A stretch of DNA of 64,000 nucleotides from Basidiobolus meristosporus CBS 931.73 (Eukaryota; Basidiobolomycota; Basidiobolomycetes; Basidiobolales; Basidiobolaceae). Every line of letters starts with the position of its first letter. Positions within the stretch are counted from its first letter, which is position 1. Positions 9,415-64,000 of this stretch are shown here, in pieces. The DNA is taken from assembly GCA_002104905.1 (NCBI GenBank), contig MCFE01000344.1, forward strand, positions 26,565-90,564. Reading direction: 5' to 3'. The notes below the pieces were generated by a model that did no database searches, had not been told where the DNA came from, and saw only the letters and a list, made by a program, of their open reading frames with translations. Position numbers and translations under genes: made by a program.

Positions 9415-9764
9415 TGTTGTAAAAATTCGTGTTTTCCACCTAAATATTCACCTAACTTAGTCACTTAGATCATCACCTTCAAATCCTAGAGAATACTGAC
9501 CAAATTCCTTGTCGGGATTTACTTAGAATATTTTCACCAAAATACCAGGTACCCAGAACATGAAAATTCTCAAAGTTGTCCAAACAGCCCCAAACTTTGC
9601 ACACATGTTCTTGGGACCTTCCTTAACCTATTCTACGTGTTTGTAATGCCAAGACCATGTAAAAGTATAAATACTACTTTTACATTCAATAAATCATTAA
9701 GTGAAAACCACATAATCTACTTGTTCTCCAAATCACTTCCAATATCTCCAAGACTCTTACAACA
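9415..9764 (+). repeat. 5' LTR of copia element 1
   Basis: The LTR starts TGTTGTAA and ends TTACAACA, an 8-bp terminal inverted repeat. Inside are a TATA-like AGTATAAATACTA (about 9664) and an AATAAA (about 9688), consistent with promoter and polyadenylation functions close together. It is 350 bp, the same as the 3' LTR. Confidence 0.95.
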
Positions 9765-9776
9765 GGTTATGAGCCC
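9765..9776 (+). promoter_or_regulatory. Primer-binding site matching initiator tRNA-Met anticodon stem-loop
   Basis: GGTTATGAGCCC directly follows the 5' LTR. It is the reverse complement of GGGCUCAUAACC, the anticodon stem-loop of eukaryotic initiator tRNA-Met. Drosophila copia and yeast Ty5 are known to prime from this internal tRNA region rather than the 3' CCA end. The gag ATG (9769-9771) lies inside the site. The same 12 bases are present in element 2 and are altered in the decayed copies at 56087 and 56599. Confidence 0.8.
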
Positions 9777-22720: not shown

Positions 22721-23070
22721 TGTTGTAAAAATTCGTATTTTCCACCTAAATATTCACCTAACTTAGTCACTTAGATCATCACCTTCAAATCCTAGAGAAT
22801 ACTGACCAAATTCCTTGTCGGGATTTACTTAGAATATTTTCACCAAAATACCAGGTACCCAGAACATGAAAATTCTCAAAGTTGTCCAAACAGCCCCAAA
22901 CTTTGCACACATGTTCTTGGGACCTTCCTTAACCTATTCTACGTGTTTGTAATGCCAAGACCATGTAAAAGTATAAATACTACTTTTACATTCAATAAAT
23001 CATTAAGTGAAAACCACATAATCTACTTGTTCTCCAAATTACTTCCAATATCTCCAAGACTCTTACAACA
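22721..23070 (+). repeat. 5' LTR of copia element 2
   Basis: 350 bp with TGTTGTAA/TTACAACA ends. It carries TTCGTATTTTCC where element 1 has TTCGTGTTTTCC. Confidence 0.94.
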
Positions 23071-23074
23071 GGTT

Positions 23075-26000
23075 ATGAGCCCCGAGCTGTCACTCTCTGC
23101 AATGTCTACTACTGCTATTACTGGAATTTTTCCCTCTGCTGAAAAGTTGGATGGATCTAACTACCAAGTGTGGAAGGTGAAGATGAAGATGCTGCTACAA
23201 GAAAGAGGCCTTTGGGATATTGTCATGGGAGAAGAATGCCCTCCTAAAAACGTGGGAGAGGAAGCCTTAAAGTACCAGAAGAAAGAACAAAGTGCCTTTA
23301 ACTGCATTTGCCTTAATGTCAAGGACAAATTGCTAATTCAATGCTCAAGAGCAAAAACGGCAAAGAATGCCTGGAAGGCATTAGAAGACACCTACCAGTC
23401 ATGTTCAGCTGCCAAGAAAATGTATCTGAGAAGAAAATTCTTTACTACAAAGATGCTGCCAGGAGAAGAAATGAAAAATCTAATTAACAGAATTACCCTG
23501 CTGGTAGATGAGATGGAATCTGTGGGCGTACCAACTACTGATGAGGATGTGATAGTTACCATCCTGAATAGCCTGACAGACGAGTTTCAGGGCCTTGTAT
23601 CAGCCCTAGAGTCCAGAACTGAAGATTTGACCTTAAATTACGTATATGGAAGGCTCCTGGATGAAGAATTAAGAAAATCAAGCGCCAATAAGAAGGAAGA
23701 AGAAAATGCATTAATAAGCAATGATAACCAACAAAGGAGGTACCCAAGACCCTACAAAGGCAACAGCAACCTATTTTGCAACTACTGCAAAAGGAAAGGA
23801 CACACATCAGACCGGTGTTTCAAAAAGAGAGATTATCAGCAAAAGAAGCCTGAATATGGAAATGCTGCAACAACTGAAGATAGACTATTCATATCTGCAC
23901 TAAATATGACCACAAACAAGGATTCTCAGACGTGGTATATTGACTCTGGAGCTTCTCAACACTTTACACACCAAAAAGAACTTTTTACCCAATATCAAGA
24001 AATTCCAATTAAGAAGGTTTTCATGGGTGACGATAGAACACTTGATGCAGTGGGAGAAGGAACTATCCAAGTAAACCTTAGAAGCAGTGAAGGAAGCCAT
24101 ACACTGACCTTTAAAGAAGTACTCTATGTACCAGAAATAGCCAAGAACCTACTCTCTGTAAGCAAGGCCACAGCAGAAGGACTCAGTTTCAGTTTTGACA
24201 ATTCTGGATGCAGGATCACTGATCAAAATGGTGCTCATATTGCTTCGGGCATCAGAGATCAGAACCTATACAAGTTGACTTATATTCCATCATATCTGGA
24301 AGCCAATATAAGTAACTTAAATGAAGAAACACCAATGCTTTGGCACAGGAGATTTGGACACATCAATTTTGATTATTTGCGCAAAATGATCAAAGATCAG
24401 CTAATTTCTGGAGTGAAAATTGATCCCCCAGCTAATTTGGAGCACTGTGAAGCCTGCATATATGGGAAACAAGCCAGACAACCGTTCAAGAGCTCTGGGT
24501 TAATCAAAACTAAGAAAAAATTAGATCTAATTCACTCAGATCTGTGTGGACCTATGCAAAATTTATCCTTAGGCGGGATGAAGTATTTAATCACTTTTAT
24601 TGATGATTATACAAGATACACATGGGTCTACTTCATGGAGAGAAAGGAAGAAGCTCTGTCTAAGCTCAGGGAGTTTAAAGCTATGGTGGAGAGAGAAACT
24701 GGTGAAAAAATCAAGAAAATACGCTCTGACAATGGTGGAGAATATACCTCAAAACTCTTCATCCACTTCTGCAAAATTCATGGGATAAAGCAAGAGACTA
24801 CTGTACCATACTCCCCACAGCAAAATGGAGTAGCAGAACGAGCTAACAGATCAATAATTGATATGGCAAGATCTATGATCCATGATCAAAAATTATCCTA
24901 TGATTTTTGGGCGGAATCAGTTGCCACTGCTGTATACCTTAAAAATAGGAGTTATAACAGAATACTTCGTGATTCTACTCCATTTGAAGCATGGTATGGA
25001 TACAGACCAAGTGCAGAACATCTAAGAATATTTGGGTGCACAGCATATGCCAAAAAACTGGCCGGAAATCAGTCAAAATTTGAGCCAAAAAGTGTAAAAT
25101 GCATATTTTTGGGCTACTGCAATGAGAGTAAGGCATACAGACTCTACAATACCGAAGCAAAGAAGCTTATCAAGTCCAGGGATGTGTTGTTTGATGAAAA
25201 TTCAAAATTTTCACAAAAAATGACATCAGATGATGACGAAAATTTGATCTCAAGTCCACCAATTGTCAGGATTGAATCAGAGCAAAACAATGAAAATTTT
25301 TTCACTCCAGAGGACTCTACAACCGTGGTTCAGCCAGAATCAGTGCCCAGGAATATCCCAGAAGTGATCATTCCAGTATCAAATGCCCGGAGATCCAATC
25401 GGACAAGAAATAGCCCAAATTACTATATCAATGAGGGTACAAACTTAGCCTATGCCTATTCAGTCCATGTTGATGAACCCCAGACTGTAAAAGAGGCCCT
25501 AAATAGCCCTCAGACGAAGTTTTGGAGATCTGCAATGACTGAGGAATATCAGGCACTGATGGAAAATCAAACTTGGGACTTAGTCAAATTACCAATCAAC
25601 CGAAAATCAATTGGATGCAGATGGGTCTTCAAGACAAAATACAAGGCTGATGGTACAATTGAAAGATACAAAGCAAGACTTGTAGCCAAAGGATACTCTC
25701 AAACAAAAGGACTTGACTATACTGAGACCTTTGCACCGGTAGCCAAGTTTAATTCCATCAGATTAATATTGGCTATTGCAGCCAAATATAAGTTTTTTAT
25801 TCATCAAATGGATGTAAAAACTGCATTTTTGAATGGAGAACTTGATGAGGACGTGTATATGGACCAGCCTGATGGGATATGTTGACCAAGATAACCCCCA
25901 TTTGGTCTGCAAGCTTAAAAAGTCACTATATGGTCTCAAACAATCACCGAGAGCCTGGAATTGCAAGATAGATTCTTATTTGGAATCTTTGAGTTTCAAA

Positions 26001-27047
26001 AGGAGTAATGCTGACTATAGTATATACTATAAGCCAGATAGAGCAAATCCAGTTCTATTAGCTCTATATGTGGATGATCTTATTATAGCCGCCAATAACC
26101 TAGAAACATTGGAAGAGACTAAATCCAGCCTATCTAAGGAGTTCAAGATGTCTGATCTAGGAGAACTTAGTTACTACTTAGGGATTAAGTTCTCCATAGA
26201 CAGAAGTACCCAGACTATTACCCTAAGCCAATCCAAGTATATTCAAGATATACTAAAGAAGTACAAAATGGAAGACTGTAAACCGGCAGCTACCCCAATG
26301 GAGACAAACCTTAACTTGGTCAAAACTCAACCAAATCAAGAGAGCTTGGTGCCATCTGAAAGCCCTGACTTTCCTTATCAATCTATGGTCGGCAGTCTGA
26401 TGTATATCATGCTTGGAACACGTCCAGATATCTCATATTCAGTGGGAGTTGTCAGCCAACATAATCAGAGCTATGGATCTGATCATATTGCAGCAGTTAA
26501 GCGGATTTTTAGATACCTAAAAGGAACTGCTGATATCTGCCTAAGATACACTTATAAGGACTCAGAACAAGATCTTGTGGGATACTCTGATGCAGATTGG
26601 GGACGAAATTTAGAAGACAGAAGATCCACCACAGGATACACCTTTCTTTACTGTCAAGGAGCAATTTCATGGAATTCAAGAAAGCAACCAACCGTAGCAC
26701 TTTCTACTACAGAGGCAGAGTATATGGCAGCCTGTGAAGCTACAAAAGAAGCAATGTGGTTAAGAAAGCTCTTTACAGATTTAGGCCTATGTCAAAAAAC
26801 GCCTATTACTTTATTTCAAGATAATCAAGGATGTATACAATTAGGTAGAAATCCAACTTTTCATGCTAGAACCAAGCACATAGATATTAGACATCATTTC
26901 ATACGTGAAGCTATAGAGAACAACTTAGTTAGCTTAGTTTACTGTCCTACAGATGAAATGATTGCAGACATATTTACCAAACCATTAGCTAGAGACAAGT
27001 TTGAATATCTTAGGTCAAAATTGGGACTAGTTAGTATGAACATTTAG
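23075..27047 (+). pseudogene. Copia gag-pol polyprotein, element 2, broken in RT
   Basis: The frame starts at the ATG inside the primer-binding site (23075) and is open to a TGA at 25883-25885, about residue 937. It covers gag, CCHC knuckle, protease, integrase and the first part of RT. At about 25874-25882 a small change relative to element 1 (one extra base plus substitutions) shifts the frame. The remainder, with YVDD and RNase H, is open in another frame to 27047. The integrase residues here look more like the copia consensus than those of element 1. No slippery heptamer typical of programmed shifting is visible at the break, so a disabling mutation is the simplest reading. Confidence 0.92.
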
Positions 27048-41357: not shown

Positions 41358-44300
41358 TTATGGATGTTGCCCTTTGGATAGCCAAAGTTGGATGGATTGT
41401 GAATCGGGTGATGGCTCGTACGTATCAGGTGACCGGAAGGTTTCCTCTGAATTGTGATAGTGGGTTAGGTCAGTACACGTCTCGTGGTCCAATTTGGACT
41501 TGATGAGGTTATGCATCATGGCCAATAATGGCTCCGAACTCTCATCATTAGCCATGTTCCTTATACGAGCCAGCATATTTCTATTCAAATGGTGGACAGC
41601 AATCCAATAAAGAAATGGCGTATGCTTCCTAGTCACTTTACGCATCAATAGGGCTTTTGCGTAAAGTTGCAATAAGGTGAAGTTCCGCTCGATCGGATAA
41701 AAATAAACCGATAGGCCATTGGGAGCTGGCGTATCCTCGATGGAATTGCGGAAAGTTGACAGCATCTCGAAATATTCACTCCAAAGAGCTAGTCTATACT
41801 CGGATGGATATGTCATTGCCAATGGAGGTAAAACCATTCGTGCAAAAACCTGATTTCCAAATGAAACAGACACATAGAGGTTAATGAAATCTTGGTAGAA
41901 TTGGTAGAATGGTACGTTCGAGTCGTTCGCCTCTTCCAGGTCAAATGCTGTCTTATCCCCGAGCTTGACAAATTCCTCGACGTAATAGTTGTACAGGGAG
42001 TTCAGTGCTGCCTCCACTGAATCCATAAGGAATAGATCTTCTCCATTTACTCGGTAGTTGATGCCAAACACCTTCATGATTTTTCTCACTCCAGTTAGAC
42101 AGTTGACACGATTATTGAACCCGCTACGTGCGGCGACGTGATTGACTAATTTGGCGTATTTGAGAGTGTTGGTGATGATATCAAACACTGAAAATCCACA
42201 AATTTCCTCAACTTCCTCAGTTTCCTTGGTGATTTTCACTACGTCATCGATGGGGGAGAGCGCCCATTGTGAGAAACTGGCTCGATTTAGTTGTGGCGCC
42301 CTCTTGAAGAACAGTGATCTTGTTTGCTTCAGGAGGTGGTATGACACAGCTCTGGATTGACCAATGTCCTCCTCCTTGCCCAGATGAGAGTTCAGGAACG
42401 GCTCCAAAATCTCTCTCAAATCGTCCGGAAGACTTAGTGCAGGGTCGTCAATGTCTCTCAAGAGCTTATGAATGTTGCGCGGTCGTAGTGCAGTGAAAAT
42501 CATGGATTCCGCAATGGCTTCCTCGCCAGCTAGTGGTCGGGTGGCCAAAACAATGGTCGCCGCATAGTATGATACGAAAGCGGGATCGAGTCCGTTTGGG
42601 ACTTCTTCTTTGGGTTTGCATGTGTCGCAGATCTTGTTGAATAAGTTGACCCATGAGTATATGGCCAAGTAGTGGCCCCGAGCGATTTGTGACATCCACT
42701 CAGTTTCTGGCTGGAAATTGATGCAGAGGTAATCAACAAGACTCAGTAGGCTGGGAGAAGTTAGCAAAGCTTGGCCTAACTCATAGAAATCAGAGACGAA
42801 TTTCTTCATCTTTGCCACCAGGTCCAGATAGGCTGATACGTAGTTACAGGCCGCTGATAGTTCGAACATTAGCTCGGCAGTCTTCATTCTACTCGTGAGA
42901 TAAAGTCCAGGTATGCCATGGGATTCTTTTGTCTTGTCTACTTTGGATATTTCGCCGATGAGTGATGTAATTCGCGTAATTGATGTCTCCAATGTTTTTG
43001 AGGTGATCCAAGAATCAAGTTTTAGTTGATTCCGAAGCTCTAAAGCTTGAGGAAGATCGGTTGCATTATTGTTGTCAACGTATCTCAGCCATCCGGAAAG
43101 ATACTGACCGATGCTGGATATAGTAAGCTCACATAAGGTTCTATCTCCTTTGAAGGAGCTTTGATCATCCAGTGCTTGGCTAACCTGAGTGAAAATGAGA
43201 ACAGCGTATGATGAGAACAAGGAGATATGAGGCCAGCAAACGGCATGCTCAGGCTCTGTACTATGCGTATCCACTGCAGCATATGTTAAGTTTTCCAGAA
43301 GTCGGAAAAAGAGAACAACCTTTTTACTGCGTAGTCGACTGATGATATCAGTCTGTGACCAAGGCTGCAACTGGCTGATGCTGGATACATATTTGACAAA
43401 TTCTTGATGGAAATCGCCGAGGATGTGGCAGTAAAATCCATATGTTGACAAGATATTCCATAGCTTAAGTGTTTCGAGTTGAAGTTGATAGCCCAGCACT
43501 TGGTCTTCTTTTGGTAAGATGTCTGGGTCAACTGCCATAAACCGCAACAATGAATTAACCAGCTCCTTGTCGATCAATTCCTTAGCGATGGATCGATTTG
43601 ATTGTGCCCAGATGCGCATGAGCTTCACTGCTAAGGCGTTTGGCAATTGGTTGTAACGCTCGTTAGTATTCGTGGGAGATGGGGGCCATTGTCGAGATAT
43701 GTATCCCCTAATGCAATCCACCATGTCGGGGCAGTCGAATACAGCGCGTGAAGATTCCACCGAGTGTTGGGAGATTTGAATCAGAATTCTAAAGATTTGG
43801 CTGATGGAAGGTTGTGGAAGGCGCGAGTAGTCAAGAAGATAGCGAAGTCTAGGAAGAAGGTTCATAGCCAACAGGCCTTTGATAATATCCTTGGATGCAA
43901 GTTTGGCGTGTCCTTGGATTGTATTCTCGTTCTCGGCATCATTATCCTCTCCGTCCTCGTCAACATCGAATCCCAGCCTATTCTTACGAGGAGTAGCAAT
44001 GGAGGGTGAGTCAGTTCTTGGGACGAAGATCGTGCCTTTGGGCAAAAGAATAACATCGTCCCAAATAGTCTCTTCAGTTACATTGCCAATCCATACCGAC
44101 ATTGTGTTCAGGGCGGCTATCATTGCTGTCTCATTGACATCATCTATGGCGGCCCTGATGTATACGGCAGCGCTTTCCTTCATAAGGTAATCGAGTACTA
44201 GTTTTTGTATGTCACTACCAAACTGGCCGTCTTTGAGATTTCCTATAATTTTCCCAAGTATGTTTAAGCTGATGATTCGCTGCGAGGATACTGCACTTCG

Positions 44301-45446
44301 CATCAAGTGAAGTAGTTCGCCCAAGGTGTAGCCAGGTCTATCGGGCTCATCGCCATGATGATGAAGGCCCATGTAAGTCGGGATGTTCTCGTTTTCTTCC
44401 AACTGGTTGCCACGAAAGTCAAACCTGACCTTATTTGCCGGATGGTCGACCTTGGTGGTGCTGGGTGCCGTCGTTGAGCTTAAGGTGGCTTCATCCAGCA
44501 TCCATTTCAACTTTTCTGGCTCTGCCTGAACATTCGGAAAGTACTTTTCCTTCATCTGCACAATATCCATTTCATCGGGAAGTGAGGTCTGATGCTCCTT
44601 TTCTGCAGCAAGTGGGTCTGCCTTTTCTTTAACGGCGCTCTCATTGATTGGGTCTACTTCTCGCTGTGAAAGAGGTTGTCTATTTCTAAGTTTCTTGATA
44701 AGCTCCGGATCTAACTGTCTCATAAGCTCAGCTTGTGCTTCCAGGATCTCATCTTCGGTCATTTTCGAAAGCGTATCAACGTTCTCTTCGTGAATTTGAC
44801 GGAACAGGACATTACTTATTTCAGGCTCTATTGGGTTTCTACTAACTTCAACATTCTTCTTGACCGTTCTCTTAAACTGGCTTCGATGGACTGGCTGTGG
44901 AAACCCGGTAGGAAATGCCGGAGTAGCATTCACCTTTTCAAAAGTGGTGCTTTCCTTCTCTTTTACCTCTCCTAGTAAGCCTACTCCAAAGCTGAAATTA
45001 TTTTTGACCGAAGGTGGTTGCAGAGAGGCAGAGGAGGAAGGCGAGGATCTATTTAATCGGGAGGCGAAAAGGGACTTCTTTTTGGTTTGTTCCGCGGGAT
45101 TTTTTACAGGGGGTGGTAGATTAGAGCTGTCCAAAGCGATTCTATCTGGCTTGATTGCTGCTTGCTGCGATTCGGGTTCTACAACCAGATCTGAAGGCCG
45201 TTCTCTAGGCAATGGAGCTTTACTTTCTTTTTCAATTAACGGCGGGGGTAAATCCGAATCACTTAATTCTTCTTCTTCCACAGGTTCTATTGCTTCCTGC
45301 TTCACCTTGCTTGATCCAATACTTGGTGGCTTGCTCACTCGCTTTACGGTAGCAGCAGGAGGATGAGCACCAAACAGGAAGTCTTCTTGCAATTGTAGCA
45401 GATCTTCCTCACCCTCCTCTACACATTTCGAGCGTATATGTTGCAT
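41358..45446 (-). CDS. RNA polymerase II-associated protein 1 (RPAP1/Rba50)
   Basis: An assembly and nuclear-import factor for RNA polymerase II. The ATG at 45446 gives 1362 residues, similar in length to animal RPAP1. The N terminus has EEDLLQLQEDFLFG, as in relatives. RPAP1_N lies at about 205-255 (VLFRQIHEENVDTLSKM, then EDEILEAQAELMRQLDPELI). RPAP1_C follows at about 335-410 (KVRFDFRGNQLEEN, THMGLHHHG-like YMGLHHHGDEPDRPGYTL, LLHLMRSAVSSQR). The C-terminal ~900 residues form a long helical-repeat region. The frame is open upstream of the chosen ATG without another ATG, so a small 5' exon is possible. It is striking as a 4.1-kb gene without a visible intron in an intron-rich neighbourhood. 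Confidence 0.92.
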   Translation of the reverse strand: MQHIRSKCVEEGEEDLLQLQEDFLFGAHPPAATVKRVSKPPSIGSSKVKQEAIEPVEEEELSDSDLPPPLIEKESKAPLPRERPSDLVVEPESQQAAIKPDRIALDSSNLPPPVKNPAEQTKKKSLFASRLNRSSPSSSASLQPPSVKNNFSFGVGLLGEVKEKESTTFEKVNATPAFPTGFPQPVHRSQFKRTVKKNVEVSRNPIEPEISNVLFRQIHEENVDTLSKMTEDEILEAQAELMRQLDPELIKKLRNRQPLSQREVDPINESAVKEKADPLAAEKEHQTSLPDEMDIVQMKEKYFPNVQAEPEKLKWMLDEATLSSTTAPSTTKVDHPANKVRFDFRGNQLEENENIPTYMGLHHHGDEPDRPGYTLGELLHLMRSAVSSQRIISLNILGKIIGNLKDGQFGSDIQKLVLDYLMKESAAVYIRAAIDDVNETAMIAALNTMSVWIGNVTEETIWDDVILLPKGTIFVPRTDSPSIATPRKNRLGFDVDEDGEDNDAENENTIQGHAKLASKDIIKGLLAMNLLPRLRYLLDYSRLPQPSISQIFRILIQISQHSVESSRAVFDCPDMVDCIRGYISRQWPPSPTNTNERYNQLPNALAVKLMRIWAQSNRSIAKELIDKELVNSLLRFMAVDPDILPKEDQVLGYQLQLETLKLWNILSTYGFYCHILGDFHQEFVKYVSSISQLQPWSQTDIISRLRSKKVVLFFRLLENLTYAAVDTHSTEPEHAVCWPHISLFSSYAVLIFTQVSQALDDQSSFKGDRTLCELTISSIGQYLSGWLRYVDNNNATDLPQALELRNQLKLDSWITSKTLETSITRITSLIGEISKVDKTKESHGIPGLYLTSRMKTAELMFELSAACNYVSAYLDLVAKMKKFVSDFYELGQALLTSPSLLSLVDYLCINFQPETEWMSQIARGHYLAIYSWVNLFNKICDTCKPKEEVPNGLDPAFVSYYAATIVLATRPLAGEEAIAESMIFTALRPRNIHKLLRDIDDPALSLPDDLREILEPFLNSHLGKEEDIGQSRAVSYHLLKQTRSLFFKRAPQLNRASFSQWALSPIDDVVKITKETEEVEEICGFSVFDIITNTLKYAKLVNHVAARSGFNNRVNCLTGVRKIMKVFGINYRVNGEDLFLMDSVEAALNSLYNYYVEEFVKLGDKTAFDLEEANDSNVPFYQFYQDFINLYVSVSFGNQVFARMVLPPLAMTYPSEYRLALWSEYFEMLSTFRNSIEDTPAPNGLSVYFYPIERNFTLLQLYAKALLMRKVTRKHTPFLYWIAVHHLNRNMLARIRNMANDESSEPLLAMMHNLIKSKLDHETCTDLTHYHNSEETFRSPDTYEPSPDSQSIQLWLSKGQHP

Positions 45447-45765
45447 GTGGTCAGTTGATATAGTGGTTACAAGTACAACTGTCCAGGACCTAAGGCACAA
45501 GCACCACTTTATTTTTTTTTACTTAGTTCGCCCTTCAAATGATTAGCCAAGATGATTAGTAATGATTTCACTTCAAATGATCGCAGATATTCCAAGATAT
45601 ACACGCATATTAACAGTCATTTCTAACAATTTTATAAATACCAACATGCTCTTATACAGAAACCTAATGAGGCGAACTCGCATATAGCCTTCCAAACAAC
45701 AAGGAAAGATTCGACAATTATGATACGGTGAAAATGAGAAATTAATTCGATATATAAATGTGGTG
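45447..45765. other. Short spacer between RPAP1 and MADS genes
   Basis: AT-rich, 319 bp, with no feature recognised beyond the 3' flank of the MADS gene and the RPAP1 5' flank. Confidence 0.4.
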
Positions 45766-55740: not shown

Positions 55741-56086
55741 TGTTGTAAAAATTCATAATTCCACCTAAATATTCACCTAACCTGTCACTTGGATCAATAC
55801 CTACAAATCCTAGAGAATACTGACCAAATTTCTTTTTTGGTTTACTTGAATATTTTCACCAAAATATCAGGTACCTAGAGCATGAAAATTAGAAAGGTTG
55901 TCCAAACAGCCCCAAACTTTGCACACATGCTATTGGGACCTTTCTAAGCCCATTCTATGCATTTGTTTTGCCAAGACTATGTAAAAGTATAAATACCCCT
56001 TTTACATTTAATCAATCATTAAGTGAAAATCAAACAAACCACTCATTCTTCAAATCACTTCCAATATCTCCAAGACTCTTACAACA
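55741..56086 (+). repeat. Copia LTR of a partial element
   Basis: A near-full-length LTR (TGTTGTAAAAATTCATAAT...TTACAACA), followed directly by gag-start sequence. Confidence 0.88.
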
Positions 56087-56301
56087 GACTATGAGTCCCA
56101 AGCTGTCACTCTCTGCCTTGTCTACTACTGCTATTTCTGGAATTTTCCCCACTGCCAAAAAGTTGGATGGATCTAACTGCCAAGTATGGAAGGTGAAGAT
56201 GAAGATGCTGACACATGAAAGAGGCCTTTGAGATATTGTCATGGGAGAAGAATGCCCTCCTAAAAGTGTGGAAGAGGAAACCTTAAAGTACCAGAAGAAA
56301 G
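56087..56301 (+). pseudogene. Copia gag fragment (N-terminal), internal remnant
   Basis: It matches the first ~70 codons of element 1 gag, beginning with a degenerate primer site GACTATGAGTCCC. An in-frame TGA occurs where element 1 has a TGG (about 56229). It stops abruptly at an LTR start, giving an LTR - 215 bp - LTR unit. Confidence 0.85.
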
Positions 56302-56598
56302 TGTTGTAAAAATTTGTAATTCCACCTAAATGTACACCTAGCTTAGTCACTTAGATCATTACATTCAAGTCCTAGAGAATACTGACCAAAATCCTTGTTG
56401 GGATTCACTTTTCCAAACAGCCCCAAGCTTTGCACACATGCTCTTGGAACCTTCCTAAATCTAGCCTTTGTGTTTGTTATGTCAAGACTATGTAAAAGTA
56501 TAAATACTCCTTTTACATTCAATAAATCATCAAGTGAAAACCACATAATCTATTTGTTCTCTTAAATTACTTCCAATATCTCCAGGACTCTTACAACA
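56302..56598 (+). repeat. Copia LTR with internal deletion
   Basis: 297 bp; it lacks about 55 bp between GGGATTCACTT and CCAAACAGCCCC compared with the 350-bp LTR. Confidence 0.85.
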
Positions 56599-56713
56599 GG
56601 TTATGATCCCCAAGCTGTCACTCTCTGCAATGTCCACTACTGCTATTACTGGAATTTTTCCCTCTGCTGAAAAGTTGGATGGATCTAACTACCAAGTATG
56701 GAAGGTGAAGATG
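56599..56713 (+). pseudogene. Copia gag fragment (short)
   Basis: It starts GGTTATGATCCCC (primer site with one change) and matches gag up to AAGGTGAAGATG, then switches to unrelated sequence. Confidence 0.85.
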
Positions 56714-57412
56714 TCCTATGAAAAATAATTTGGTCCTGTGGGTGGATCCAATCCAGATCAAATGCCAGGATCCCATTTAGAGACCATCATGATACCAGCA
56801 GCTTGGAATTAGTGACCCTCCTAATGATCTTATGACAGGATCACAATGGTGTTTTGCTAATTTTACAACCAAATAAAGGGATAAAACTTGACAAGATATA
56901 ATTGGTGCTGTGACAATATTTGCATGGTATTGTTTTGGTCTTTTAGTGCTCTATAACTATTTTAAGTGGATCCAATTGGCCAGGACATCCAATTGCTTTA
57001 TATGGCAAGAAACTTGAAGGTATTATGATGGCCTCACAGCAAGACTCTGATGGCATTATATTGGTAGTATGACAGCCTACAGCTGGTTCTGTATAAAGCT
57101 ACCGTACCAATTTACCAAATGGTGTTTCCTTTCTCTACCTCCCCTTATGCAATTCATATATTCCACTGTAGAATCACCCCTCTTTATTTGCCTACCCACT
57201 ACTACCTTTGGTATTCCACATATAGTTCAGATAAAAAAAAACTATGGCCTCCTGCTTACCAACCTCTATAAAGAAGCACACCTGCCACAAGTGACATACT
57301 TCTATCACCTCAACTTTACGGCTTTTAGTGTGATACTTGCAAAGATGCCATATACCTTGTACTGCTGATAACATATACATCTTGCAAACATATGCTTGGT
57401 TGTTGCCACTTC
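56714..57412. other. Unrecognised 0.7-kb block between copia fragments
   Basis: This sequence has no match to the LTR or gag and no coding motif. It separates two LTR-gag fragments and may be another repeat or captured DNA. Confidence 0.4.
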
Positions 57413-57761
57413 TGTTGTAAAAATTTGTATTCCCACCTAAATATTCACCTAACTTAGTCACTTAGATCATCACCTTCAAATCCTAGAGAATACTGACCAA
57501 ATTCCTTGTCAGGATTTACTTAAAACATTTTCACCAAAATACCAGGTACCCAGAACATGAAAATTCTCAAAGTTGTCCAAACAGCCCCAAACTTTGCACA
57601 CATGCTCTTGGGACCTTCCTTAACCTATTCTACATGTTTGTAATGCCAAGACCAGGTAAAAGTATAAATACTACTTTTACATTCAATAATTCATTAAGTG
57701 AAAACCTCATAATCTACTTGTTCTCCCAATCACTTCCAATATCTCCAAGACTCTTACAACA
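57413..57761 (+). repeat. Copia LTR (young) of truncated element
   Basis: 349 bp, close to the LTRs of elements 1 and 2, followed by an intact primer site and gag start. Confidence 0.93.
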
Positions 57762-57941
57762 GGTTATGAGCCCCAAGCTGTCACTCTCTGCAATGTCTAC
57801 TACAGCTATTACTGGAATTTTTCCCTCTGCTGAAAAGTTGGATGGATCTAACTACCAAGTGTGGAAGGTGAAGATGAAGATGCTGCTACAAGAAAGAGGC
57901 CTTTGGGATATTGTCATGGGAGAAGAATGCCCTCCTAAAAA
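57762..57941 (+). pseudogene. Copia gag fragment cut at telomeric-repeat seam
   Basis: It has the intact GGTTATGAGCCC site and ATG, and matches the first ~58 codons of gag through CCTCCTAAAAAC. The sequence then becomes ATAGGGTTTTTAGGGGGG, a degenerate telomeric repeat running into the 3' end of retroelement A. Confidence 0.92.
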
Positions 57942-57957
57942 CATAGGGTTTTTAGGG
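57942..57957 (+). repeat. Interstitial degenerate telomeric repeat at copia/element A seam
   Basis: ATAGGGTTTTTAGGG resembles TTAGGG units with small changes. It separates the broken copia copy from non-LTR element A. Confidence 0.7.
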
Positions 57958-58896
57958 GGGAGACAGTCACCAACAGGTGAAATCTTTATTTCAGTTGAAA
58001 CAAAGAAGCCAGCACTACTGTTGTAGCTTTGATACAAGAGTGTGTAGCTGAGGGGAATTTGTAGGTAAGTTAATAAGAAGTGATGATAGTTCTTCAGTGC
58101 TCAAGACACTGTTCAGTGGGAAGGGGGGTAGCAAGAGAGGTAAGAATGACTTGTGAACAACATTAATGAGGGGAATGTGATAAGGATTGATATTCATCAT
58201 AAAGGGAGTGTGCTGCTGCAGATACTGCTGCCAAAGGTCTGTCAAGTACCTCAGGTAGGCCAGCTTGGGTTTTTCTGACTGCAGAATATAGTGAGCAAAC
58301 TTCTTGATTTCAGGATCTCCAAGTATAGTTCTCCAGCAGGAGTCAGGTGTAGTGTGGTGTGTTCTCTTCCAGGCCTTAATCAGTGGGTTGTTGCAGTTGT
58401 GAAGTCTGAGGTATAATTTGGTTCTAAGGTAGAGAAGTCTGATCTTATAGGGCATAAACCCAAAAGCACCAAGAATAGCATGTCTGTAGGGGCATTCAGG
58501 CAAATGAGGCACCAAGGAGGTAATGCACCATACTGCAAACTTGTCAAGCTTAGTGCAGTCTCTAGAAGTAAGAGAGAGAAGTGGTAAGCCAAATTCCAGG
58601 ACAGGGAAGACAAACTGCTCGAGTAGAAGGAGGCAGCTGGGAGCTGAAGTTGTAGGAGGAGTAACAGCCAGTAGCTTGTGGAGTGCCTGTCTTGCAAGGA
58701 TAATTCTCTTCTTCAGGTGTGCTCCAGAGTCTAGTCCAGTAGGAAGGAAAGGAAAGCCAAGATATGTAGCAGAAACCTGAGCAGGTAGAGTGGAGTTCTG
58801 CAAGTTGATGGGAGAGCCCAAAGGTACTGTCTTTGCAATGGAAAGCTGGAGATTATTCTTCTGCAGATACTGGTGGATGGTCTGGGAGTCTTGTTG
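57955..58896 (-). mobile_element. Telomere-associated non-LTR retrotransposon copy A, 5'-truncated
   Basis: About 0.94 kb, nearly identical to the 3' end of element C. On its sense (minus) strand it keeps the RT C-terminal and terminal regions of ORF2 (a 303-codon frame at 58926-58015), the stop, a ~65-bp 3' UTR with AATAAA, a small hairpin (57967-57980) and a terminal C-run. The 5' end is cut at CAACAAGACTCCC (58896) and abuts telomeric repeats, as expected for incomplete reverse transcription. Confidence 0.9.
58015..58896 (-). pseudogene. ORF2 C-terminal fragment of element A
   Basis: The frame is intact from the truncation point to the stop and matches element C ORF2 from the end of the RT domain to the C terminus, with a few substitutions. 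It lacks the endonuclease and the RT catalytic motif. Confidence 0.9.
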
Positions 58897-58910
58897 GGTT
58901 AGGGTTAGGG
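58897..58910 (+). repeat. Interstitial telomeric repeats between elements A and B
   Basis: GGTTAGGGTTAGGG lies between the truncated 5' end of A and the 3' end of B. Confidence 0.9.
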
Positions 58911-59250
58911 GGAGGAAAGTCACCAAGTGGTGAAATCTTTATTTACTTATGACAAGTATTTAAAGAAGCCATGTTAATCTTAAGTTATTCCTAGAAAGCT
59001 AGGTCTGAGAGATATCTTCCTGGTAAGCCAGGTCTGAAAGCTGAGAAGCTGAGTGGTACTATATTTCCTAGTTAGCTAGGTCTGAGAGAGGTTTCCTGGA
59101 AAGCCAGGCCTGAGAAGTGAGAATCTGATTATATCTGAGCTAAGTTATATTGGTTTGCGGTAACTGAATTGTGGCCGGAATGGCCAGTAGACTGGGGGAA
59201 CTGAGAGGAATTTCTGGGCGATCACTGGCCAAATTTACTAGGCAAATCTG
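58911..59250 (-). mobile_element. Non-coding telomeric retroelement B (tail-sharing)
   Basis: A ~340-bp unit between telomeric repeats. Its sense (minus-strand) 3' end shares with A and C a GAAGCC block, an AATAAA-containing AAATAAAGATT, the UCACC-loop-GGUGA hairpin (58920-58933) and a pyrimidine/C-run. The rest does not match C and has no open frame. Four 5-bp-stem hairpins occur at 58990-59003, 59019-59032, 59067-59080 and 59095-59108. It is either the 5'-truncated 3' UTR of a related family or a non-autonomous element using the same tail. Confidence 0.7.
58990..59108. repeat. Four-hairpin repeat array in element B
   Basis: The stems are CCTAG/CTAGG, CCTGG/CCAGG, CCTAG/CTAGG, CCTGG/CCAGG with four-base loops AAAG, TAAG, TTAG, AAAG. 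Each is followed by a TCTGA-like word (CCTGA after the fourth). The pair of hairpins seems to be duplicated, and within each pair one stem position changes A:T to G:C on both sides. Confidence 0.9.
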
Positions 59251-59280
59251 GGTTAGGGTTAGGGTTGAGGCGAAGGGTTA
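59251..59280 (+). repeat. Interstitial telomeric repeats between elements B and C
   Basis: GGTTAGGGTTAGGGTT, followed by a degenerate GAGGCGAAGGGTTA, then the G-run of element C. Confidence 0.88.
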
Positions 59281-59293
59281 GGGGGGGAGACAG

Positions 59294-59307
59294 TCACCAA
59301 CAGGTGA
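59294..59307 (-). promoter_or_regulatory. 3'-terminal hairpin of element C
   Basis: TCACC-AACA-GGTGA on the plus strand, 7 bases from the terminal G-run. It is present with the same stem in A (57967-57980) and with loop AAGT in B (58920-58933). It is probably a recognition structure for the reverse transcriptase. Confidence 0.65.
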
Positions 59308-59341
59308 AATCTTTATTTCAGTTGAAACAAAGAAGCCAGCG

Positions 59342-62110
59342 CTACTGTTGTAGCTTTGATACAAGAGTGTGTAGCTGAGGGGAATTAGTAGGTAAGTTAA
59401 TAAGAAGTGATGATAGTTCTTCAGTGCTCAAGACACTGTTCAGTGGGAAGGGGGGTAGCAAGAGAGGTAAGAATGACTTGTGAACAACATTAATGAGGGG
59501 AATGTGATAAGGATTGATATTCATCATAAAGGGAGTGTGCTGCTGCAGATATTGCTGCCAAAGGTCTGTCAAGTACTTCAGGTAGGCCAGCTTGGGTCTT
59601 TCTGACTGCAGAATAAATTCAGCAAACATCTTGACTTCAGGATCTCCAAGTATAGTTCTCCAGCAGGAGCCAGGTGTTGTGTGGTGTGTTCTCTTCCAGG
59701 CCTTAATCAGTGGGTTGTTGCAGTTGTGAAGTCTGAGGTATAATCTGGTTCTTAGGTAGAGAAGTCTGATCTTATAGGGCATAAACCCAAAAGCACCAAG
59801 AATAGCATGTCTGTAGGGGCATTCAGGCAAATGAGGCACCAAGGAGGTAATGCACCATACTGCAAACTTGTCAAGCTTAGTGCAGTCTCTAGAAGTAAGA
59901 GAGAGAAGTGGTAAGCCAAATTCCAGGACAGGAAAGACAAACTGCTTGAGTAGAAGGAGGCAGCTGGGAGCTGAAGTTGTAGGAGGAGTAACAGCCAGTA
60001 GCTTGTGGAGTGCCTGTCTTGCCAGGATAATTCTCTTCTTCAGGTGTGCTCCAGAGTCTAGTCCAGTAGGAAGGAAAGGAAAGCCAAGATATGTAGCAGA
60101 AACCTGAGCAGGTAGAGTGGAGTTCTCCAAGTTGATGGGAGTGCCCAAAGGTACTGTCTTTGCAATGGAAAGCTGGAGATTATTCTTCTGCAGATACTGG
60201 TGGATGGTCTGGGAGTCTTGTTGCACATTGGAGGATGATATTCTGATGTCATCAGCAAAGAGAGTAACCAGGCAGTCAGCTGAGAGTCTTGGGAAATCAT
60301 TCAGGAAGATGGCAAACAGTAAAGGACCAAGCACAGAGCCTTGAACCACTCCATTAGGAACTGAGAACACAGCTGATTGCTCACTTGGGTGCAGAATTCT
60401 TGCTTGTGGATCCAGAAACAGAGATCTGACAAGGAGGGTGAGAGAGGTACTGGAGAAGCATTGCAACTTGGACCAAAGCAGATTTCTGTCAACTGAATCA
60501 AAGGCCTTAGTAATATCAAACAGAACAGAGGGATACTTGCTCTGGAGAGAGTGATCTTGGCTAAGTATGACTGCATATTCCAAGGAGAGGCCAGGAACAA
60601 AGCCAAACTGCGCAGGATGAAACATGAGGGAGTCAGAGTAGAGCTCCTGAGCAAGCAGAAGCTCAAACACCTTTCTGCAGGTGGGCAGCAGAGATATTGG
60701 TCTGTAGGAGCTAGGATCCAGGTGCTTTCCTTTACCCTTGTACAGTGGCAGAACATTTGCAAAGGACCATTCCTCAGGAGTAGAAAGCTGGGCTGAGCAT
60801 TGCTGAAACAGTGGAAGCAGAAGTGCAGACATGGCCTTGGTACTAGTCTTCAGAAGCTCATAGGAGATTGTGTCCACACCTGGAGCAGTAGAGTTGGGAA
60901 GCCTCTTGAGCACATTATGGATTCTCCTTTGATCAAGTGCAAGTGGGATGGGCAGAGTCTTGAAGTCAGGATGAAAGCCAGGAGTTGAGTACTGCTTTGT
61001 AGAGAAGAAGATGTTAGCCAGCTGTTCTGTTGAAGGTAACTTCCTGGAAGAGGGCCTCATTGCCCTGTAGAGTCTTGATACTGTTCTTGTTATAGAGTTG
61101 GAAGATTGCAAAGGCAAGGAACTCATAATATGATCCCAGAGCTGAGTATGCAGAGTGTGGTGAATTGCCTTGGAGTGGTGTATTGCTGTCAGGAGGAGTT
61201 TCTCTGTTTTTGGGTTAGGGAAACTCAGGTAGCTTTGTTGCAGGGCTGAAACAATGGATTCCCATTTTCTTGAGGTAACAGCAGTAGTCTTGCATGGCAG
61301 TGAGAGGGAGGCAGACACCAGAATCAGATGCTTCACAAAGAGCCAGGCATAGTTGAGATCATCTGGCAGAGAAAGTAGCAAACTGGCAAGCTTCAAGTAG
61401 TTCCCAAAGTCTTTCTTCTGATTCTTGGTAGCTTTGTGGGTGAGCACAGTAAGTTTTGGCAGCTTCTTCTTCACAACTGGTTGCATAGAAAGGGACCAGG
61501 CTGGGTGGTCAGAGGCTCTCAGGGATCCTAGCTCAGCTGCAGAGAATTGCTTAACTTCATTCACAAAGTAGAGGGCAGCAGCAGAAGGGCAGATCCAGTC
61601 AACACATCTTTTCTCAGATTGAGCACCTAGTGCTAGCAGATGGCTTTCTCTCAGGAAGTTCAGTAGGAATGTAGACCTTGGCTTCATTCTTGCAGTCAGA
61701 GTAGTCTTGTTCTCAGGATGGGGAATGTTGAGATCTCCAAGCAAGATAATAGGTGTTGATATAGATTGCTGGTATTGCTGAACTTTCTGGCATATAACTT
61801 GCACTTCCTGAAGGGCAAGACTTGGAGGCAGATAGCAGAGCACCAGACTGATAGTTGGCAACTGGAGAGCAGCACAGTAAGGGGAGTAAAGAGGAACACA
61901 GAGCTGAGGAGTATTGATGGTAGAAGAGATGAAGCAGATAGAGGAGGTATTCTTTGTTCTAGGAGTAGAAAAGCAATATAGATTAGTCAAAAGTATAGAG
62001 GGTAGCTGGACATCAATCAAACACAGGAGGGAAAATCTTGAAAGAAGTCTCTCTAGAGTTGGTCTTGATGGCTGTATGCTGTTGCAGTTAAGCAACAGAA
62101 CTTCAGGTAG
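59342..62110 (-). CDS. ORF2: endonuclease-reverse transcriptase of element C
   Basis: About 920 codons, in the same frame as ORF1 and directly after its stop. The N terminus LPEVLLLNCNSIQPSRPTL is the first strand of an APE (EEP) endonuclease. Later motifs are LVLCYLPPS, LLGDLNIPHPE (Asp/Asn pair), RCVDWI and RASDHPAWSL (catalytic His). The expected QET-type glutamate is replaced by LIDVQLPS. The RT follows in the middle: SYRPISLLPTCRKVFELL, HPAQFGFVPG, SVLFDITKAFDSVDR, NGVVQGSVLGPLLFAIFLND and the catalytic FADD. The C terminus is a ~280-residue domain without RNase H or a CCHC knuckle. There is no ATG between the ORF1 stop and the endonuclease start; the first in-frame Met lies deep inside the domain (near TARMKPRS). 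Confidence 0.92.
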   Translation of the reverse strand, partial: LPEVLLLNCNSIQPSRPTLERLLSRFSLLCLIDVQLPSILLTNLYCFSTPRTKNTSSICFISSTINTPQLCVPLYSPYCAALQLPTISLVLCYLPPSLALQEVQVICQKVQQYQQSISTPIILLGDLNIPHPENKTTLTARMKPRSTFLLNFLRESHLLALGAQSEKRCVDWICPSAAALYFVNEVKQFSAAELGSLRASDHPAWSLSMQPVVKKKLPKLTVLTHKATKNQKKDFGNYLKLASLLLSLPDDLNYAWLFVKHLILVSASLSLPCKTTAVTSRKWESIVSALQQSYLSFPNPKTEKLLLTAIHHSKAIHHTLHTQLWDHIMSSLPLQSSNSITRTVSRLYRAMRPSSRKLPSTEQLANIFFSTKQYSTPGFHPDFKTLPIPLALDQRRIHNVLKRLPNSTAPGVDTISYELLKTSTKAMSALLLPLFQQCSAQLSTPEEWSFANVLPLYKGKGKHLDPSSYRPISLLPTCRKVFELLLAQELYSDSLMFHPAQFGFVPGLSLEYAVILSQDHSLQSKYPSVLFDITKAFDSVDRNLLWSKLQCFSSTSLTLLVRSLFLDPQARILHPSEQSAVFSVPNGVVQGSVLGPLLFAIFLNDFPRLSADCLVTLFADDIRISSSNVQQDSQTIHQYLQKNNLQLSIAKTVPLGTPINLENSTLPAQVSATYLGFPFLPTGLDSGAHLKKRIILARQALHKLLAVTPPTTSAPSCLLLLKQFVFPVLEFGLPLLSLTSRDCTKLDKFAVWCITSLVPHLPECPYRHAILGAFGFMPYKIRLLYLRTRLYLRLHNCNNPLIKAWKRTHHTTPGSCWRTILGDPEVKMFAEFILQSERPKLAYLKYLTDLWQQYLQQHTPFMMNINPYHIPLINVVHKSFLPLLLPPFPLNSVLSTEELSSLLINLPTNSPQLHTLVSKLQQ

Positions 62111-62113
62111 TCA
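62108..62113 (-). promoter_or_regulatory. Candidate readthrough site UGA CUA between ORF1 and ORF2
   Basis: On the sense strand the ORF1 terminator TGA is followed by CTA, and ORF2 continues in the same frame. UGA CUA is a well-known leaky stop context in viral and cellular genes. ORF2 has no start codon at its N terminus. Confidence 0.6.
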
Positions 62114-63619
62114 GGCAGAGGTTGTAGCTTCTTCAGAGGCAGCATTGACAATGTGACCTGCAGAGTCCCAGAGCTCTTCAAATGGTGCATCACTTAAGTC
62201 AGCAAGGAGGGAAATGGCATGATTCTTGAGGAAGTATGCCACATCATAGGAGGGGGCTTGTCTCTTGATGGCAGCAAAGAAAGACAGAATGGCAACATGG
62301 GCTGGAGGCTTGTTGAACAGTAGAGAGTCAGAGGATTCAGATTCTTCAGGCACTATCTTGAAGTCAGTTTTCAGCCAGTTAAGGTTCTTTGCCACAAAGG
62401 CAACAAATGGGTCAGCAATGTTTTGGTCTAGGATAACCTCCAGAATCTTCCCTTTTCTCCAGGCCAGGTTGACAATTCTTGAGAGCTGAATATTGCATGC
62501 CTTGAGTGCTTTCCTGATGTTGGAGATGGGAGTCCAGGGAACTTGCTTCAAGTACACCACAGTCCAGGTAGAAGCTGGTGGTAGGTTTGCTGGGGGCTTG
62601 TAAGTCCTTCTGTGTGGCAATGGAGCTGCAGTAGTCAGATTGGAGTCCACATTCTCAGTAGAGGGTTTTCTTGATGTGTCTTGCTGTATGGTACTGGAGC
62701 TGGATGTGCTGATAATTCTTGCTAGAACCTTGCCTGCATAAGTCTGAGGAATAGCTGAGGTAACTGTAGAGGTGGTGGCAGCTGGTGCAGGTGGAGAGGC
62801 AGAAACTGAAGCAGGAACTGAGGTCACCTGGGAGAAGGCAGTAGCAGCAGGTTTTCTGGGAGGAACAGAGTTCACTATCCAGTTGTTCTGTAAAACACTG
62901 GAGTAGCTTTTCTGTGGAACAGGATCTTGCTCTTGAACAGGAACAGAAGCAGGAGGCTGGGGCTGAGCAGTAGTGGTAAGGCAGTGGCACTCCAAGGAAG
63001 CTTTTTGCAAGGCATCTCTAGCAGTTTTCAGGGCAGTATTGGCTTCATTCTTGAGCTTCTTGCATTGGGCATCCAGTCTCTTGTTTTCAATAGCCAGGGC
63101 AGTATTGGCAACCTCTAAATCAGCAATTCTCTTCTCAATTGCAAGGAATCTCTGAAGAAATGCATCAGTAGAAGTGCTGGCATCTGGGAGAGCAGTGGCA
63201 GGAATAGACTCCATTGACAGTGGGCTTCTTGGAGGCAAGGAAAGTGGACTGGCAGATTCAGGCACAAAAGGAGATATCCTGGCAGGAGGAGAAGGAGTAT
63301 CCAAGGCAGTAACAGAGGCAATTCTTGTTGGTGAAGCAGCAGCAGGGGAGGCAAGCCTGTTCAGAAACTGGGCAGGAGAGAGTGCTTGAGGAGAGGGAGT
63401 CTTCAGCTTGCCAAGCATGTCTTCCATCAGAGTGATACCAATATTCCTGGTGCATTTGCAGAGAAAAGTAAGCTTCCTGAGTCTGCCAGCTCTTCCATTC
63501 CTTCTGATAGTTCCTTTGTTTCCACAGTTGGGGCAAGAAATCTTCTTGACAGACTTGTCAAAGCAATCAAGAACCTTCCTTTCAGGTGTAGTGGGCTCCT
63601 GTTGAGGTTTTGGTGGCAT
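62111..63619 (-). CDS. ORF1 protein of element C
   Basis: 502 residues from the ATG at 63619 to a TGA at 62113-62111. A zinc-ribbon-like motif near the N terminus reads SCPNCGNKGTIRRNG followed by FLCKC. Then come a Ser/Pro/Ala-rich stretch, a coiled coil (around RIADLEVANTALAIENKRLD), another low-complexity Pro/Ala/Thr-rich stretch and a folded C-terminal part (WTVVYLKQVPWTPISNIRKA onward) that may be an RRM-like nucleic-acid-binding domain. By analogy with L1/Tad ORF1 it should package the element RNA. The stop is followed by CTA, and the frame continues into ORF2. Confidence 0.88.
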   Translation of the reverse strand: MPPKPQQEPTTPERKVLDCFDKSVKKISCPNCGNKGTIRRNGRAGRLRKLTFLCKCTRNIGITLMEDMLGKLKTPSPQALSPAQFLNRLASPAAASPTRIASVTALDTPSPPARISPFVPESASPLSLPPRSPLSMESIPATALPDASTSTDAFLQRFLAIEKRIADLEVANTALAIENKRLDAQCKKLKNEANTALKTARDALQKASLECHCLTTTAQPQPPASVPVQEQDPVPQKSYSSVLQNNWIVNSVPPRKPAATAFSQVTSVPASVSASPPAPAATTSTVTSAIPQTYAGKVLARIISTSSSSTIQQDTSRKPSTENVDSNLTTAAPLPHRRTYKPPANLPPASTWTVVYLKQVPWTPISNIRKALKACNIQLSRIVNLAWRKGKILEVILDQNIADPFVAFVAKNLNWLKTDFKIVPEESESSDSLLFNKPPAHVAILSFFAAIKRQAPSYDVAYFLKNHAISLLADLSDAPFEELWDSAGHIVNAASEEATTSA

Positions 63620-63688
63620 ATCCAGAGTTTCAGCTTCAAATTTCAATTTTTGAGATTTTTGGGTGATTTTTGATGGGCGGGATCAAAA

Positions 63689-63702
63689 TTAGGGTTAGGG
63701 TT
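63689..63702 (+). repeat. Telomeric repeats at the 5' side of element C
   Basis: TTAGGGTTAGGGTT lies about 70 bp upstream (sense) of the ORF1 ATG. Confidence 0.9.
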
Positions 63703-63846
63703 GCGCGCTGTGACTGCTTTTTACGATCGCAAGGTCAGAACCTAGGAAAAAATAAAAATAGTTAGTAAAGGTGATTTAATGGATGGATGGATGGATTCGG
63801 AGTCAGATTCAATCAAAAAATCAAATCGTTGACTAATTTAAAGAGG
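63703..63846. other. Unique 144-bp segment between element C and terminal telomere
   Basis: Non-telomeric sequence with four GGAT repeats (about 63781-63796). It may be the true 5' UTR of element C, with the telomeric repeat at 63689 internal to it, or a remnant of another terminal element. No open frame is present. Confidence 0.5.
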
Positions 63847-64000
63847 TTAGGGTTAGGGTTAGGGTTAGGGTTAGGGTTAGGGTTAGGGTTAGGGTTAGGG
63901 TTAGGGTTAGGGTTAGGTTAGGGTTAGGGTTAGGGTTAGGGTTAGGGTTAGGGTTAGGGTTAGGGTTAGGGTTAGGGTTAGGGTTAGGTTAGGGTTAGGG
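63847..64000 (+). repeat. Terminal telomere, (TTAGGG)n
   Basis: About 154 bp of TTAGGG repeats in the G-rich orientation expected for a right-hand chromosome end, reaching the last base. Two units are shortened to TTAGG (near 63913-63917 and 63984-63988). Confidence 0.95.

Follow-up and report, generated by a model that had tools for sequence, protein, structure and literature searches.

Drosophila provides the textbook case of telomeres made of retroelements, a state that goes with the loss of telomerase. In Bombyx, the TRAS and SART elements combine a first open reading frame (ORF1) with an apurinic/apyrimidinic endonuclease (APE) and carry poly(A) at the junction with the telomere. Telomere-associated long interspersed nuclear elements (LINEs) and relatives named in a 2023 paper are SART/TRAS, GilM/GilT, Zepp1, MoTeR1, Tx1-1_ACar, Athena and the Drosophila set (PMC10088271), and the fungal telomere LINEs MoTeR, FoTeR and Cnl1 are of the restriction type (PMC12857005; PMC7367193). 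Here we describe a chromosome end of the fungus Basidiobolus meristosporus CBS 931.73, contained in a window of 64,000 nucleotides that extends to the end of a contig of 90,564 bases (assembly of 89.0 Mb in 1311 contigs). With a probability of roughly 85%, we consider that telomere-specific retroelements, acting as a community, have built this end jointly with telomerase repeats. By our comparison, five element types (C, E, D, F and B) share one 3' end and join TTAGGG by it, with their 5' ends outward.

Within the window, three elements (57959-63846) follow each other head to tail, all on the minus strand, with 3' ends inward beside TTAGGG and 5' ends outward; the contig terminus at 64000 is capped by 154 bp of TTAGGG (Table 1). 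A first-pass annotation, made from the letters of this DNA, had described elements A, B and C in one orientation, each with its 3' end on telomeric sequence at the centromere side, A being 5'-truncated and C full length and outermost. Our results agree with it on all these points: A retains 938 of 4561 bp, and C is complete with one monomer of about 100 bp at its 5' end. B had been called short, which is true of its length (342 bp), yet it is not a short LINE copy; it is a truncated copy of a different, 522-bp element. The TTAGGG blocks reported between the elements are present, but the clean tracts measure less than 20 bp, unlike the terminal array, and the junction of element A with the telomere repeat is degenerate (TAGGGTTTTTAGGGGGG).

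The arrangement is found throughout the assembly. The common 3' tail pattern GTCACC-loop-GGTGAAATCTTTATTT occurs 1522 times genome-wide (1399 on the plus and 123 on the minus strand), and TTAGG lies 2-12 nt upstream in 1191 of these cases; backward-read controls gave 0 for the tail as well as for the tail with TTAGG, and on these controls TTAGGG occurring by chance was rejected as an explanation. Placement was examined for the first 100 of the 1522 listed places, which are distributed over 29 contigs. On 11 contigs of 168-345 kb, 37 out of 37 listed tails lie at most 22.2 kb from a contig end with their 5' side outward, as is characteristic of telomere-specific elements; two of the 37 sit on C80, a reversed contig, and have the same polarity. 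The remaining 63 listed places belong to 18 other contigs; the eight of known size are all about 20 kb or shorter, and on contigs of this size position tells us little. Among the first 100 listed places, every contig with at least two copies (25/25) carries them in a single orientation. The first-pass annotation had named copies scattered over internal sites in both orientations as the observation that would speak against it; what we see near the ends of the long contigs is the opposite.

The number of telomeric ends can be gauged from perfect repeat runs. Matches to (TTAGGG)10 number 5200 and those to (TTAGGG)11 number 4878 (7 and 6, respectively, in the backward control), and the difference gives 322 runs of 60 bp or more. 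Since one telomere can hold more than one run, this count indicates only roughly that telomeric ends number some hundreds. For an assembly of 89 Mb, this figure suggests very many chromosome ends, or many alternative ends. Matches to (TTAGGG)3 are distributed as unevenly between the strands as the tails are (8002 plus, 103 minus), as if the contigs had been oriented towards telomeres. This bias is unexplained, and it is the one point in favor of an assembly artefact in which elements and telomeres were misjoined at contig ends, a possibility also raised for the window by the first-pass annotation. The same kinds of junction, however, recur in dozens of contigs with different neighbors; the 3' register and the 5' ends are both largely precise; and C735 and C679, contigs in the other orientation, have the same polarity. 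Such recurrence on many contigs argues against misjoining, which we regard as very improbable.

The composition of the community was studied in loci fetched from the assembly (262,487 nt besides the window; partly overlapping, picked for containing elements, and mostly about 3 kb long). They contain the types C, B, D (loop AAGGTA and variants), E (loop AAGTT) and F, all five of which keep AATAAAGATTTCACC-loop-GGTGA plus a C-rich end on the sense strand. Folding of one tail per type predicts the same 5-bp stem, extended to 6 bp in E, with z-scores of -3.9 for C, -1.8 for B, -2.5 for D, -1.8 for E and -2.5 for F. No compensatory changes were seen in the hairpin: the stem is invariant, and the pattern search itself had used it. 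A and C represent one APE-type LINE and E a second one, which, depending on the piece compared, is identical to C at 36-51% in ORF2 and 45-60% in ORF1. Element D has its own set of 5' tandem monomers and, in an ORF of 242 codons, a homologue of the ORF1 C-terminal part (35%, 4e-21); F likewise has an ORF1-homologous ORF (28%, 3e-13). D thus carries ORF1 (gag) alone while having its 3' end in common with a partner that encodes a reverse transcriptase (RT). This arrangement is HeT-A-like, and we claim no more than the arrangement, not membership of D or F in the HeT-A family of the Jockey clade.

Element B measures 522 bp at full length, and no long ORF was found in it; we take it for a non-coding element resembling short interspersed nuclear elements (SINEs). 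The fetched loci include 30 B copies with a 3' end (overlapping loci kept) and 12 distinct full-length ones, whose 5' end runs straight into TTAG in 11 cases, the twelfth being TGGGTTAGGG. The 5' head contains an exact B box, separated by 43 nt from an A box that has two mismatches; 5 of 2000 shuffled sequences were as good. ARAGORN (three loci) and Rfam (two loci) recognised no tRNA in B. The single retroelement family proposed by the first-pass annotation is telomere-linked as claimed, but it is not one family: there are two LINEs, two ORF1-only types and one SINE-like type. The ORF1 plus APE architecture that it proposed is that of the LINEs; it overlooked the several bodies on one tail, the ORF1-only types and the UGA-CUA arrangement described below.

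Several of these reading frames bear signs of selective constraint. Among 31 distinct C copies (reduced from 36 rows, with broken-frame copies still counted column by column), the ratio of nonsynonymous to synonymous changes, relative to the neutral value, stands at 0.35 for ORF1 and at 0.28 for the initial 120 codons of ORF2, and in 23 of the 31 the UGA is the only stop over 624 codons examined. The corresponding value for the D ORF is about 0.26 of neutral in 7 distinct copies free of premature stops in the reference frame; two of the seven have a one-base insertion at an unlocated place, and two end some 20 bases early. Judged by these ratios, ORF1, the start of ORF2 and the D ORF show purifying selection.

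According to the protein domains, ORF2 of C encodes an RT of the non-LTR (long terminal repeat) type: besides the Pfam domain RVT_1, a six-sequence RT profile finds LINE-1 ORF2p as its best match in the PDB (1.7e-21), ahead of R2 (3.3e-8). Upstream of the RT lies an APE-like endonuclease, recognised as Exo_endo_phos_2 in 5 of 6 sequence pieces, two of them from E (best 2e-7); the motifs LLNCNS, GDLN and SDH were seen by eye. The C-terminal restriction-like endonuclease of the CRE/REL clade was not found, as its motif C-C-H-C plus RHD/N (as given in PMC12857005) is absent from the ORF2 of C and of the relatives P0001-P0005 (6/6), P0004 and others being incomplete at the N-terminus only. A Penelope-like element was rejected as well, because the RT and APE domains do not fit. 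The first-pass annotation was therefore right to separate this architecture from the restriction-like MoTeR and from Penelope-type elements. For the C-terminal domain of ORF1, the PDB holds no meaningful relative (best 0.64).

Five close, unnamed RT relatives (48-80% identity in one search, 45-83% in another) sit on contigs of 3.9-5.7 kb from the sources ena or lgn, and we take them to come from environmental assemblies; viral_contigs and genome_contigs yielded no relatives. In the former search, the other 68 matches among the 8000 best candidates scored reach 21-38% identity, and 64 of these matches span less than half of the query. In a tree of 77 RTs (78 prepared, one dropped with fewer than 150 residues in the cut; few named rows and no labelled TRAS, SART or Tad), the seven telomeric sequences all fall into a single group (100/100), which has a long branch (1.66). 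E clusters with P0005 (100/99) and C with P0004 (100/98). Both LINE lineages would predate this species if P0004 and P0005 belong to others. The telomerase repeats that the first-pass annotation had placed beside the elements have their counterpart in a telomerase domain: at C880, two neighboring pieces match Telomerase_RBD above the cut-off, and one of them contains an in-frame TAG of the kind that an intron might produce; the domain was found in 0 out of 14 control genomes.

At 77 of 82 distinct 3' junctions in the fetched loci, (T)TA stands directly before the G-run, i.e. the 3' end is joined directly to the telomere repeat, in line with the 1191 TTAGG-preceded tails genome-wide. The G-run itself is variable (5-9 in C, mode 6), and a TTA-G register with a variable G-run would fit pairing of an RNA C-run with a TTAGGG end. 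Interstitial tracts at the 82 junctions contain 0 repeat units in 5 cases, 1 in 48, 2 in 23, 3 in 3 and 4 in 3, with a median length of 10 bp and a maximum of 26 bp. The 16 terminal arrays recognised (the same 16 with a floor of 60 bp or 18 bp) are 119-245 bp long, values that are lower bounds because the arrays reach the contig ends. The upstream elements at the junctions comprise 26 5'-truncated C or B copies and 23 copies (C, B or D) that are complete by the cut-offs used. In none of 66 element-to-element junctions, most of them in loci of about 3 kb, does an element resume past the telomeric element that follows it; a single element is interrupted, and what splits it is a non-telomeric insert of 693 bp. 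Where C is 5'-truncated, its end overlaps the telomere repeat by 1.85 nt on average compared with 0.78 nt simulated (P = 0.006), an excess that healing of the cDNA end by telomerase would be expected to leave. This sample is small and selected, with 13 of 29 ends usable and 16 dropped for having no telomere run of at least 9 nt within reach. The insert just mentioned occupies positions 1586-2279 of locus L069, begins with TGTTGTATCC, looks like a solo LTR and splits a C copy; similar sequence adjoins an E copy in L076.

The mechanism that we propose for such junctions starts with the ORF1 and ORF2 proteins, which would bind the common 3' hairpin, whichever of the five RNAs carries it. By its terminal C-run, the RNA would then anneal to the 3' end of a G-strand that terminates in TTAGGG. 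The RT would copy the element RNA onto this end, and telomerase would cap the new cDNA 3' end, leaving it ready for another round. ORF2 would be supplied as a readthrough fusion with ORF1 across UGA-CUA. The usual substrate would be an end that is short, or that has just been healed, and bears very few repeats; we favor natural short ends because the interstitial tracts are so short.

An alternative model follows TRAS/SART: the APE nicks TTAGGG within a telomere that is intact, the nick becomes the insertion site of the element, and tracts that were originally longer broke and were lost later, as in MoTeR. The conservation of the APE-like domain in 5/6 pieces and the purifying selection on the first 120 codons of ORF2 would be expected under this model, and a fixed cut would give the same TTA-G-run register in 77/82 junctions. 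Internal insertion does not readily account for interstitial tracts of 26 bp at most next to terminal arrays of 119-245 bp, nor for the fact that no element is split by another telomeric element, and the presumed catalytic Glu of the endonuclease is an Asp by our own reading of the motif. In Magnaporthe, MoTeR tracts of at least three repeats break, and those above two repeats are fragile (PMC7367193), which makes a nick in a longer array with subsequent loss a serious rival; we give it somewhat less than even odds.

It could also be that the arrays are amplified mainly by recombination between ends (break-induced replication, unequal exchange) and that retrotransposition is rare. The best-scored copies are about 98-100% identical, and there are tandem duplications with identical truncation points, such as two adjacent C copies both ending at 489 (L038). 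A further point for recombination is C853, where a satellite-like array lies between element and telomere: in L071 (9037-9999), after the last annotated element and before the terminal telomere, an 11-bp telomere-like motif recurs ten times, 86 bp apart. Among the 66 junctions, however, truncation points, neighbor types and tract lengths differ widely, and the elements begin at the same 3' end. The purifying selection on the C and D ORFs moreover suggests copying that depends on expression, and we think it unlikely that recombination is the main source of the arrays.

A further feature of the LINEs of this community is the transition between their ORFs. In C, the UGA that ends ORF1 is followed by CUA, and from there the reading frame continues without a stop through the 922 codons of ORF2. 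An ATG first appears in ORF2 at codon 142, past the GDLN motif. TGACTA is present in 31/31 distinct C copies and in all of the first 100 listed of 151 C places, and family E has the same UGA-CUA arrangement (L077, L078). Among 33 E places found with at most 3 mismatches, 31 have TGACTA; the other two copies, C102:168063 and C830:45757, have TGAGTA and CAACTA. C and E use the same codon at only 68 of 155 identical residues (31/73, 19/36 and 18/46), whereas TCT GCC TGA CTA is identical in both. As regards a sense reading of UGA in this fungus, one of the six long ORFs of the window ends in TGA. CUA after UGA, three nucleotides, is sufficient for readthrough in Ustilago maydis (PMC4207609), and we infer that ORF2 is made as an ORF1-ORF2 fusion by readthrough. 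Searches confined to a few papers on non-LTR readthrough and on fungal UGA CUA showed no retroelement case; if true, this would be one.

Translation of ORF2 by reinitiation, or from a non-AUG start after the ORF1 stop, is a competing explanation, as SART1 uses stop-start coupling (PMC5972666) and the relative P0001 is recorded as a protein beginning just before LLLLNCNS. Such a start would have to do without an ATG up to codon 142, past GDLN, and would not call for the exact frame continuity in both C and E, or for the TGA CTA kept in both families that suffices for readthrough in U. maydis. We therefore judge reinitiation improbable.

A number of observations weigh against the picture of a telomere-specific community drawn so far. 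No TTA precedes the G-run at 5/82 junctions, and TTAGG is absent from the 2-12 nt upstream of 331/1522 tails. Given that the fetched loci were chosen for their elements and are mostly about 3 kb long, orientation inside them is not independent, and the far half of a split element could be missed. A nick made by the APE inside an array would leave the same junctions, and by analogy with the breakage of MoTeR tracts the short interstitial tracts may be survivors. As to the enzymes, the endonuclease of the window C lies below the curated Pfam cut-off, the endonuclease profile has no PDB relatives at E up to 1, and the Asp (LCLID/LLLID) at the presumed catalytic Glu position is seen in C, E (L077), P0001 and P0002. 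Frames are broken by indels or truncation in 8 of the 31 C copies; the E copies examined are broken as well (L076 in several frames, L077 by a frame change in ORF1), and E may thus be dead. Element F was seen only in part. Readthrough is argued from sequence context; the bases around TGACTA are also nearly invariant within each family, and the search for E tolerated up to 3 mismatches.

The elements may also have a role in telomere maintenance. In its strongest form, this would be a two-enzyme telomere, in which telomerase works alongside five co-evolved retroelement types that sustain themselves as a set and lengthen short or broken ends by up to kilobases. The ORF1-only elements would provide an end-seeking coat protein in the manner of HeT-A, a SINE would be a parasite of the tail, and the polymerase would be available only as a UGA-CUA readthrough fusion. 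We advance this version tentatively and would sooner expect it to fail than to hold. If true, the fly telomere system arose a second time, in a fungus that kept telomerase.

Features of the chromosome end are compiled in Table 1. ORF1 of C has an N-terminal zinc-ribbon-like stretch CPNCG..CKC (by eye) and a C-terminal domain common to the ORF1-only elements. Further inside, the gene at 41361-45500 encodes RNA polymerase II-associated protein 1, with its nearest named relative in Basidiobolus ranarum (78% identity). Copia-like polyprotein ORFs and gag-like fragments (named by eye) occur at 9637-13740, 22943-27047 and 55968-58026, the last stretch directly inside of element A.

Table 1. Elements, reading frames and repeat tracts at the chromosome end (positions in the window).
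Feature	Position	Strand	Remarks
Element A: LINE of family C, truncated at the 5' end (938 of 4561 bp)	57959..58896	-	98% identity to C positions 1-938
Interstitial TTAGGG tract between A and B; overlaps G-run at B 3' end	58899..58912	+	
Element B: 5'-truncated copy (342 of 522 bp) of SINE-like element	58910..59251	-	95% identity to full-length B of L046
Telomere-like interstitial tract separating B from C; ends in G-run at C 3' end	59253..59287	+	
Element C: full-length APE-type LINE, 4561 bp	59286..63846	-	
3'-terminal hairpin, 5-bp stem, common to five element types; then C-rich tail (sense RNA)	59294..59307	-	
ORF2: APE-like endonuclease and RT, 922 codons	59342..62110	-	RVT_1 1.4e-25; Exo_endo_phos_2 1.9e-4, below cut-off (Pfam)
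UGA stop of ORF1, then CUA, in frame with ORF2; putative readthrough site	62111..62113	-	
ORF1 from first ATG: 502 codons and stop	62111..63619	-	
TTAGGGTTAGGG within 5' untranslated region of C	63689..63700	+	
5'-terminal monomer of about 100 bp; one in window C, several in tandem in some other C copies	63744..63846	-	
Terminal TTAGGG array at contig end	63847..64000	+	

Compared with the described systems, the closest fungal counterparts are MoTeR1/MoTeR2 of Magnaporthe and FoTeR of Fusarium, which also point their 5' end to the terminus, leave short interstitial tracts and have intact copies at telomeres; variable tandem repeats near the 5' end in FoTeR and TTTGGG repeats in MoTeR are further likenesses to the Basidiobolus elements, as is MoTeR2, a non-autonomous partner sharing both ends (PMC7367193; PMC12857005). 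Their RT is of the CRE type with a restriction-like endonuclease, whereas here an APE-like domain lies upstream of the RT, and ORF1 is combined with ORF2. Basidiobolus would thus have APE-type LINEs at telomeres in a kingdom whose known telomere LINEs are, as far as surveyed, of the restriction type.

The R1-clade elements TRAS/SART of Bombyx are likewise telomere-specific LINEs alongside telomerase-type repeats (PMC10088271), and SART1 couples its ORFs by stop-start reinitiation (PMC5972666), in place of which UGA-CUA is found here. The Basidiobolus junction lacks poly(A), which TRAS/SART are generally known to carry. LINE/SINE pairs with a common 3' tail resemble the relation of B, with the hairpin tail of the LINEs and an A/B-box-like head, to its partners; here the tail also goes with the telomeric site, and a tRNA origin of B is unsupported by ARAGORN and Rfam. 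Zepp and Tx1-1_ACar are not known to have ORF1-only or SINE partners, a point at which no search was aimed. Zepp of Chlorella and Tx1-1_ACar of the anole are also telomere-associated LINEs alongside telomerase repeats (PMC10088271). In the literature on Basidiobolus telomeres, non-LTR readthrough, telomeric SINEs and APE-type fungal telomere elements, covered mainly through titles and abstract openings and with few subscription journals, no such system was found.

HeT-A, TART and TAHRE of Drosophila (Jockey clade) likewise form head-to-tail arrays with their 3' ends inward (PMC10088271), and HeT-A encodes only Gag (PMC5009743), just as ORF1-only elements stand beside RT-bearing ones here. What sets Basidiobolus apart from the Drosophila set are a telomerase domain and TTAGGG repeats, a G/C-run junction without poly(A), a SINE-like partner, and UGA-CUA between the ORFs. 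A telomerase-bearing fungus with autonomous, ORF1-only and SINE-like elements on one telomere-joining tail would mean that such a community is possible without telomerase loss, and it would offer an organism for asking whether the elements help chromosome ends or merely ride on them.

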